From Crocinitomicaceae bacterium (GTDB lineage: Bacteria; Bacteroidota; Bacteroidia; Flavobacteriales_D; Crocinitomicaceae), in assembly GCA_024643365.1 (NCBI GenBank), contig JAHENC010000019.1:1-64000 (forward strand): a stretch of DNA of 64,000 nucleotides, given 5' to 3'. Both the position numbers and the translations under genes were made by a program. The notes under the pieces are model-generated. The model saw nothing but the letters and a program-made list of their open reading frames with translations. It ran no database searches and was not told the DNA's origin. Shown here in pieces: positions 49,555 to 52,842 of the stretch. The number at the start of each line of letters is the position of its first letter. Positions within the stretch are counted from its first letter, which is position 1.

Positions 49555-50934
49555 ATGGAAAGAAGAGATTTTGTAAAGGCCTCGACCTTAGCAGGAATTG
49601 GTGCATTGGTGCTACCGAACTCCTTATTTGCCGGACAATTACCAACGGATCGCAAGGTTCGATTAGGCTTCATCGCTGTTGGTTACCGTGGACAATCCCA
49701 TTTAGAAGAAATGATGAAACGTGACGATGTGGAAATCATCGCGCTCGCTGATCCAGAACCAAGAATGATGAAGGATGCATTGAGTTTAGTGCTCCGAGCT
49801 GGAAGAAAAGAACCTGCAGTTTATGGCAATGGGGATGAAGATTACAAAAACTTACTTCAACGAGATGATATAGATGCCGTATTCGTTTGTTCCCCTTGGG
49901 AATGGCATTTGAAACATGGAATAGATGCCATGAAAGCAGGTAAAATCGTTGGAATGGAAGTGTGTGGTGCCATGAAATTAAGCGATTGTTGGGAGTTTGT
50001 GAAAACCTACGAAGAAACAAAAACACCCATCATGATGCTGGAAAATGTCTGCTATCGTCGCGATGTGATGGCCGTTTTAAATATGGTAAAACAAGGACTT
50101 TTTGGCGAGTTGGTTCACGGACAAGGTGGATACGAACACGACTTGCGCGGAGTATTGTTTAACGACGGACAATCCGCATACAATTCAGGAGTTGAATTTG
50201 GTGAAAAAGGATTCAGTGAAGCAAAATGGAGAACAAATCATTACGTGAACCGAAACGGAGAATTATATCCAACTCATGGACTGGGTCCAATTGCTACCAT
50301 GTTCGATTTAAACCGCGGAAATCGCATGCTGCGTTTGACTTCAATGGCGAGTAAGTCGCGTGGATTGAAAAAATACATTGAAGAACATCCAAAAGGTGGA
50401 AAGGATCATCCAAATGCAAAAATTGACTTTAAACTAGGCGATGTTGTCACCACACAAATTCAATGTGCAAACGGAGAAACGATTCTCTTAACTCATGATA
50501 CGAGTTTACAGCGTCCCTACAATTTAGGTTTCCGTGTACAAGGAACAGAAGGAATCTGGCAAGATTTCGGTTGGGGTGATGCTGAGCAAGGACTCATCTA
50601 TTTTGAAAAGCAAATGAGTCATTCTCATAAATGGGATAATACCAAAACGTGGTTAGAACAACACGACCATCCACTTTGGAAACGCTTTGCGAAAGAAGCA
50701 GAAAACTCCGGACACGGTGGAATGGACTTCTTCGTTGACAATGCCTTTATTGAATGCATCAAACAGAACAAAGAATTCCCATTAGATGTCTATGACCTAG
50801 CGGCATGGTATTCGATAACACCGTTGAGCGAAAAGTCCATCAAAGAAAACGGACAACCTCAAGACATTCCAGATTTCACCAAAGGTGCATGGAAAACACG
50901 TAAACCTGTTTTTGGACTGACGGATGAATTCTAG
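49555..50934 (+). CDS. Gfo/Idh/MocA-fold protein, GH109 alpha-N-acetylgalactosaminidase-like, with Tat-like signal
   Basis: [99 protein letters not shown]. Confidence 0.85.
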
Positions 50935-51808
50935 TCCAAGTTTGGTCATATTAGCCGGTGGACTAGGGTCTCGTTACAAGGGTTCCAAGCAAATCGATGT
51001 ATTCGGAGAACAACACGCTTTTCTGCTCGAGTTTGCGCTATATGATGCCTGGCAAGCGGGATTTGGAAGTATTGTACTCATTCTCAATAAGTATGTTTAC
51101 GCGGAGATGAAATCCAAATTGTCACATTGGGTGTCACGCATGGAGTTGCATTTTGTACTACAGGATTTGACGACAGAACAACAGCAATTAGTTGATCCCA
51201 ATCGCAACAAGCCATGGGGAACGGCTCATGCTTTACTCTGCGCCCAATCATACGTAAAAGGTCCATTTGTTGTCATGAATGCGGATGACTATTATGGTAA
51301 ATCGGTGATGAAACGTGCTGCGTCATTTTTTCAAGATGAACATCAAGATCAAGGATTAATGTCGTATGCTTTGTCGGATACCTTAAGTGATTTTGGTGGC
51401 GTTTCAAGGGGATTGTGCACGTGCGATTCACAAGGATTTTTAGAAAACATTTTAGAATGTCACGGAATTTTCAAAAATGATACTGCACTCCAAAGTCAAG
51501 AAGCTATTCATTTGTTGGAATCTGACCGAGTTTCCATGAATTTATGGTTTTTTCAAGTCCGTATTTTTGATTTTTTAAGAGGATATTTCGAAGATTTTTT
51601 TGCTTCCAATCACAGTGAATTAAGCGCAGAGTGTTATCTACCTTCGATGGTTCAGTCAGGTATTGAACAACATGAATTAAAAGTAAAGGTGCTATCCAGT
51701 CAGGAAAAGTGGGTTGGACTTACCTTCTCTGCGGATAAGAATTCAGTGATGCAATACTTAAGTGAATTAACGGAACACAATGCTTATCCAAAATCCTTTT
51801 CCTTATGA
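50924..51808 (+). CDS. Sugar-phosphate nucleotidyltransferase
   Basis: [20 protein letters not shown] and NADDYYGK motifs; overlaps both flanking genes. Confidence 0.83.
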
Positions 51809-52842
51809 ATCGGCAATTGGAACGATCGGTAGCTAACGACTTTTTAAAGTCTCAGGAGACAAAAGTCCAGCGGATTAGTCTATTAAAGGGTGGACTCATT
51901 CACAAAACATTTTTGGTGGAGGCAATGAACGAGGCGTTTTATGTTCTTCAAGGAGTGAACACTCACGTCTTTAGCAATCCAAACTTGGTGGTGATGAACC
52001 AACTACGAATTGCGCAGTTTTTAGAAAAAAAAGGCTATCCAAAATCGTGTCTAACACTTGTGAAAAGTGCCGATCAAAGTTATTTGCTTCAAGACCACAA
52101 AGGACAAACTTGGCGCATGTTTCATGCCATTCATCCAAGCAAAAGTTTAGATGTCCTCACGAAGAATGTACAAGCATTCGAGGCGGCGAAAGCTCTAAGC
52201 GAATTTCACTCCTACTTACTGGACTTCCCCAAAAACCAAATCCAAGAAAGCATTCCTGGGTTTCTAGACTTCAATAAGAGAAGGAAAGATTATCAACATT
52301 CTTTAAAAGTCGCAATCCCATATCGTCGAACTCAGGCTAGTTATTTGATCAAGAAAATGGTGGAGCATGAGGAGGTATTGACACGATACCTAGCATTGTT
52401 GCCAAAGATTCCGAAGCGAATCATTCATGCAGATCCAAAATTGAGTAATTTTTTATTTGATTCAAACGGGGTGGAGGTGCGTGCACTTATTGATTGGGAT
52501 ACCATTATGGTGGGAAGTATTTTATATGATTTTGGAGATATGGTCCGTTCGTTTTGTCAAGTTGGAACAGAGGATACTCAACAGAAAAACGCTTTCAATC
52601 CAGCTATATTAAAGGAATTAATCAATGGATATGTTCAAGGTCCAATGAACGATCACCTCAGTGATTTAGAGCGGGAACATTTTCTTTTGGGAGCAAAGGC
52701 AGTGATTTACATTCAGGGCCTTCGTTTTCTAAGCGATTACTTAATCGGAGATCAATATTATTGGGTGGAGGACGAAAATCATAACTTGCGCAGGGCAAGG
52801 AATCAGTTTCAATTGTTAGAAGAGATCAGTCAGTTAGATTAG
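51805..52842 (+). CDS. APH-fold phosphotransferase (NahK-like N-acetylhexosamine kinase candidate)
   Basis: RIIHADPKLSNFLFD (HxDxxxxN catalytic loop), ALIDWDTIMVG (DWD); 4-nt overlap with the nucleotidyltransferase. Confidence 0.8.
   Translation: MNRQLERSVANDFLKSQETKVQRISLLKGGLIHKTFLVEAMNEAFYVLQGVNTHVFSNPNLVVMNQLRIAQFLEKKGYPKSCLTLVKSADQSYLLQDHKGQTWRMFHAIHPSKSLDVLTKNVQAFEAAKALSEFHSYLLDFPKNQIQESIPGFLDFNKRRKDYQHSLKVAIPYRRTQASYLIKKMVEHEEVLTRYLALLPKIPKRIIHADPKLSNFLFDSNGVEVRALIDWDTIMVGSILYDFGDMVRSFCQVGTEDTQQKNAFNPAILKELINGYVQGPMNDHLSDLEREHFLLGAKAVIYIQGLRFLSDYLIGDQYYWVEDENHNLRRARNQFQLLEEISQLD

Follow-up and report, generated by a model that had tools for sequence, protein, structure and literature searches.

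Closest described systems and the GH109-nucleotidyltransferase-kinase cassette

In Bacteroides thetaiotaomicron, one polysaccharide utilization locus (PUL; BT4240-50) contains both a GH109 protein (BT4243) and BT4240, an APH kinase that is 39% identical to NahK and acts as an N-acetylgalactosamine (GalNAc) 1-kinase (PMC11992087). BT4240 is required for growth of B. thetaiotaomicron on GalNAc and the 'downstream metabolism' was left open; the terms 'nucleotidyl', 'uridyl', and 'UDP-GalNAc' are all absent from the text of that paper (PMC11992087). A related set of genes was found in a freshwater Bacteroidota bacterium (Crocinitomicaceae bacterium; assembly GCA_024643365.1, contig JAHENC010000019.1), of which positions 1-64,000 of the forward strand were analyzed (the window). 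It consists of genes for a GH109 protein, a nucleotidyltransferase (NT), and an APH-fold kinase (KIN), and likely represents an operon for the salvage of GalNAc, possibly also of N-acetylglucosamine (GlcNAc), via GalNAc-1-phosphate to UDP-GalNAc. The cassette resembles BT4240-50 in that GH109 and a NahK-like APH kinase occur in one locus, but the latter is a large SusCD-type PUL for which no nucleotidyltransferase is mentioned in the paper, whereas the cassette is a bare three-gene operon with the NT gene in between and overlapping gene ends. An earlier note on this DNA has to be corrected here, as the pairing of GH109 with a GalNAc 1-kinase is already published for B. thetaiotaomicron; because that paper contains the pairing without nucleotidyltransferase terms, the coupled NT is what the cassette adds. 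No report with the full trio was found in a literature search covering few subscription journals.

Two further systems are comparable. The lacto-N-biose/galacto-N-biose (LNB/GNB) pathway of Bifidobacterium (NahK/LnpB, LnpC, and GalE) likewise leads from an N-acetylhexosamine (HexNAc) 1-kinase through UDP-HexNAc to a 4-epimerase. LnpC is a UDP-glucose-dependent GalT-type transferase, whereas the NT of the cassette has a PF00483 fold and is predicted to use UTP. The AmgK-MurU system also combines an anomeric APH-fold sugar kinase with a uridylyltransferase, but the NT of the cassette is closest to 3pnn/GalU types, its kinase is NahK-like, and a GalNAc glycosidase is linked to both. The analogy with AmgK-MurU drawn in the earlier note stands for the pairing of a kinase with a nucleotidyltransferase, but not for the NT itself, which is not recognisably MurU. 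The cassette is probably a minimal, UTP-driven variant of the known HexNAc 1-kinase routes.

Families, folds, and conserved residues of the three proteins

All three genes lie on the + strand. According to the open reading frame coordinates, the end of the GH109 gene overlaps the start of the NT gene by 11 nt (50924..50934), and the stop of the NT gene overlaps the start of the KIN gene by 4 nt (ATGA; 51805..51808). These overlaps, the Tat-like leader and GH109 type of the first protein, the nucleotidyltransferase motif of the second, and the NahK-like APH fold of the third had all been claimed in the earlier note and were confirmed.

The first gene (49555..50934) encodes a predicted GH109 N-acetylgalactosaminidase of the NAD-dependent type (459 aa), starting with a Tat-like, twin-arginine leader ([27 protein letters not shown]). 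It contained the GH109 C-terminal domain (PF21252; E 4e-87, 290.7 bits, cut-off 27) and a Rossmann domain (GFO_IDH_MocA; 38.3 bits, cut-off 24). Its sequence matched the alpha-N-acetylgalactosaminidase NagA of Elizabethkingia (2ixa), the founding GH109 member, nearly end to end (E 8e-213), and the GH109 protein 6t2b with an E of 1e-78; the GH109 protein of locus L130, which has the same cassette order, is likewise closest to this NagA. The loop G386-H387-G388-G389 was invariant in eight cassette members and aligned with GAGHGG of NagA, the first residue of the loop being S instead of G. The acid-base catalytic histidine of GH109 is placed in a GGHGG-type loop by Teze 2020, as cited in PMC12269599, and those GH109 enzymes that have been characterized are N-acetylgalactosaminidases, frequently active on either anomer (PMC12269599). 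In one relative (G017; L034, 3982-5364), stops and shifts of the reading frame disrupt the GH109 gene, whereas NT and KIN remain open, reflecting either decay or an assembly error.

The second gene (50924..51808) encodes a sugar-1-phosphate nucleotidyltransferase, predicted to be a HexNAc-1-phosphate uridylyltransferase (294 aa). It belongs to the NTP_transferase family (PF00483; E 4e-9). Its profile matched 3pnn (E 5e-88), followed by GalU-type uridylyltransferases (E ~1e-6). The only close relative in the PDB is 3pnn, a Porphyromonas gingivalis protein without assigned function, and the NT is, judged by its sequence, a member of an uncharacterised family. An AlphaFold2 (AF2) model (pLDDT 94.5) displayed the NTP-transferase fold, with 3pnn, then RmlA and UDP-glucose pyrophosphorylase as nearest folds. 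The nucleotide-binding signature G-x-G-[ST]-R-x(n)-K was present, its residues G13, S16, R17, and K22 being invariant in 38 NTs; the motif region of the window protein comprises [14 protein letters not shown]. Identification of the NT as MurU was rejected, as the PDB profile matches up to E 0.1 comprised zero MurU entries.

The third gene (51805..52842) encodes a predicted NahK-like N-acetylhexosamine 1-kinase with APH fold (345 aa; PF01636, E 8e-18). Its profile matched NahK (4wh1/4ocj/4ocu) with an E of 1e-83, the next protein following at 1e-5. Similarly, Foldseek ranks 1 to 6 for its AF2 model (pLDDT 93.9) were all NahK, with a TM score up to 0.90 (NahK with GlcNAc), making NahK the nearest family by a wide margin in both profile and fold, in a comparison set without an AmgK sequence. 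Residues D210 and D230 were invariant in 27 relatives and align with D208 and D228, the catalytic aspartate pair of NahK.

Proposed route

In the proposed route, the exported GH109 enzyme would cut terminal GalNAc off a glycan, after which GalNAc would be taken up into the cytoplasm by a transporter whose gene lies outside the cassette. The NahK-like kinase would then form GalNAc-1-phosphate, which the NT would join to UMP from UTP, yielding UDP-GalNAc. Finally, GalE, encoded elsewhere in the genome, could convert UDP-GalNAc into UDP-GlcNAc, to be used in glycans of the cell wall or surface. The conversion of HexNAc to HexNAc-1-phosphate and UDP-HexNAc, as read in the earlier note, is supported as a prediction by families, folds, and co-occurrence.

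In the draft window genome, searched with family models, GalE was found over the cut-off, whereas NagA of HexNAc 6-phosphate catabolism was not found over the cut-off and NagB was absent. This suggests that HexNAc 6-phosphate catabolism is absent from this genome and that the product of the cassette is more likely biosynthetic. The bypass of 6-phosphate metabolism postulated in the earlier note is thus in line with the window genome, but in other Bacteroidota the same pair lies beside NagB and therefore probably feeds catabolism too. Indeed, flavobacterial locus L148 carries, in this order, a LacI-like regulator, NT, KIN, an epimerase, a NagP-like major facilitator superfamily transporter, and a glucosamine-6-phosphate deaminase of 642 aa that includes a PIG-L domain. 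The nearest solved relatives of the epimerase are 6dnt, WbgU, and WbpP, the latter two being UDP-HexNAc 4-epimerases. Such neighbours read as a series of GalNAc-1-phosphate, UDP-GalNAc, and UDP-GlcNAc, with NagB as catabolic exit. In L142 and L143, NT-KIN likewise had NagB of the PIG-L type nearby, as did GH109 and NT in L150. With about 642 aa, these proteins (L148, 11105-13033; L142, 8043-9971; L143, 2907-4835; L150, 10070-12337) unite a NagB-type deaminase and a PIG-L deacetylase domain; encoded beside NT-KIN or GH109, they could supply deacetylation without NagA.

Conservation of the cassette in the genus and in other families

Near relatives were metagenome-assembled genomes (MAGs) labelled Crocinitomicaceae or Flavobacteriales, one of them bearing the mistaken label Chryseobacterium. 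All same-genus loci with KIN and sufficient reach displayed GH109-NT-KIN in this order, and did so in at least two different genomic settings. Among 61 same-genus genomes, NT and GH109 were present in the identical 30 and absent in the identical 31, the genes being adjacent. A Saprospiraceae MAG (L033) displayed this order as well, as did sampled members of two other families (L130-L132 and, by coordinates, G103); the cassettes of L131 and L132 are preceded by a sodium:solute symporter. As order and short gaps or overlaps were kept in the genus and in these families, with NT and KIN identities down to ~35%, the arrangement is not due to chance. Chance clustering through a shared neighbourhood was rejected as well, the trio order being the same across differing settings (L034-L038 versus L040-L051) and families.

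Between sub-clades of the genus (L030-L051), NT and KIN were ~35% identical versus ~75% for GH109, indicating unusually uneven rates within one operon. Therefore, trees were checked for swapped genes. The kinases of the genus grouped on one side, together with G267, and the NTs adjoined near the base without forming one supported group, so replacement is not shown. A plasmid of Hymenobacter tibetensis (L052, 8001-12350) carried NT-KIN alongside genes for a LacI regulator, a CBM9-like protein, and a GH109-like Gfo/Idh/MocA protein.

Co-occurrence across the phylum

In a sample of 238 Bacteroidota genomes, KIN was present in 41, NT in 44, and both in 40, 39 of which also contained GH109 (66 in total). 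Taxonomic confounding of the KIN-NT co-occurrence was rejected, as none of 20,000 within-family shuffles reached the observed overlap (40, versus 29.7 expected). KIN and NT were at most 300 bp apart in 22 of the 40 genomes, and 18 genomes had GH109 no more than 5 kb away from one of the two. KIN and NT are both kept even where their genes lie apart, a pattern expected from a shared pathway. Lack of co-occurrence of the three genes in related genomes, named in the earlier note as evidence that would speak against its proposal, was looked for, and strong co-occurrence was found in the genus as well as in the 238 Bacteroidota. Gene order, families, folds, and co-inheritance as a block across the phylum are observed.

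The NT is a candidate for the follow-on enzyme after BT4240 in B. thetaiotaomicron. The joint occurrence of the three families throughout the phylum points to a likely missing enzyme in the use of mucin sugars by gut Bacteroides; the cassette and the near-perfect NT-kinase co-occurrence make the NT a specific candidate for the step that follows the kinase in Bacteroides GalNAc use. In addition, a structural-genomics orphan, 3pnn, would be tied to a concrete reaction, and the route would exist in freshwater Bacteroidota in a very compact version.

Relation to galactose metabolism

GalY (Amuc_0031), a PF00483 protein, was predicted as a GalT substitute by Ravcheev and Thiele 2017 (PMC5583593). 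It resembles the NT in family and in enrichment in galK-positive, galT-negative genomes; GalY was predicted for galactose only, whereas the stronger partner of the NT is a HexNAc kinase. Among galK-positive genomes, galT was absent from 29 of 38 with NT versus 11 of 59 without (p 2e-8, uncorrected for kinship). Conversely, NT occurred in 29 of 40 galK-positive, galT-negative genomes versus 9 of 57 with both genes, and all nine of the latter contained KIN. As all four genomes with NT and without KIN were galK-positive and galT-negative, the NT may additionally correspond to GalY. In one of the genomes lacking KIN and galT (G176; L149, 2043-6228), NT lies with a sodium:solute symporter and galK, two genes from the latter. 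NT was divergent from an SSS-family symporter in two loci of genomes without KIN (L160, 4310-7152; L161, 4181-7058).

On the other hand, NT was present in 40 of 41 KIN-positive genomes, including all nine with galT, absent from all 48 KIN-negative genomes with galK and galT, and present in six genomes without galK. Within families, galK was no predictor of NT (p 0.40), whereas KIN was. A role solely as GalT replacement was rejected for the window genome, where the cassette is retained despite adjacent galK and galT genes. The simplest account is that the NT is used for HexNAc-1-phosphate and can also take galactose-1-phosphate; where galT is missing, it may double as galactose-1-phosphate uridylyltransferase, a function to be added to the earlier note. 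Chances are about even that the 3pnn-type family generally serves the HexNAc 1-kinase route of Bacteroidota as sugar-1-phosphate uridylyltransferase, performing the step after BT4240 and also replacing GalT. If so, one 3pnn-type enzyme would join the Leloir and GalNAc routes, and possibly the GalY prediction too would be tied to a concrete reaction.

Alternative explanations

According to the strongest competing explanation, the NT acts primarily as galactose-1-phosphate uridylyltransferase and is paired with KIN solely because mucin-type glycans supply galactose as well as GalNAc. The association of NT with galT absence, the four KIN-negative genomes, and the symporter-galK neighbourhood of L149 all fit this explanation, and the GalY prediction was built on the same kind of pattern (PMC5583593). 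It is unlikely, however, given the presence of NT in nearly all KIN-positive genomes regardless of galT, its occurrence without galK, its prediction within families by KIN and not by galK, and the adjacent galK-galT of the window genome. Peptidoglycan recycling of the AmgK-MurU kind, in which KIN would act on N-acetylmuramic acid (MurNAc) or GlcNAc and NT would make UDP-MurNAc or UDP-GlcNAc, is very unlikely: it would have the same kind of pairing, would agree with the missing NagB and NagA, and could draw on the single APH gene of the window genome, which leaves no separate APH-type AmgK, but the PDB matches of the NT profile up to E 0.1 lack MurU, KIN resembles NahK in both sequence and fold, and GH109, the partner found throughout, is a glycosidase specific for GalNAc. 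Least probable is a role of the GH109-like protein as Gfo/Idh/MocA oxidoreductase, with the cassette modifying a sugar without releasing GalNAc. Such a role would suit the GFO_IDH_MocA domain and the non-GalNAc enzymes of related families, but is contradicted by the end-to-end match with NagA, the GH109 C-terminal domain, and the invariant G-H-G-G loop.

Several points weigh against GalNAc salvage to UDP-GalNAc. KIN and NT were non-adjacent in 18 of the 40 genomes containing both, and NT occurred without KIN in 4 of the 238. After 3pnn, the fold neighbours of the NT are mostly dTDP-forming RmlA, so that UTP as the nucleotide rests on weak similarity to GalU and on the galT pattern. Homology to NahK does not distinguish GalNAc from GlcNAc. 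A GalNAc transporter was not identified for the window genome, and that NagA and NagB are lacking there was judged from a draft genome with family models. We infer the substrates, the use of UTP, the periplasmic location, and the physiological role and direction.

Genomic context in the window

The gene upstream of the cassette ends at 49468, and the downstream gene (52845-53363), coding for a KdsC-type phosphatase, lies on the opposite strand, so the trio looks like an operon of its own. Directly before the cassette, the stretch 42734-48713 encodes a DabA inorganic-carbon transporter subunit with a NuoL-like partner as well as a SulP-family transporter; a DUF2490 gene comes next. This stretch resembles a bicarbonate/CO2 uptake cluster and is mostly kept in relatives.
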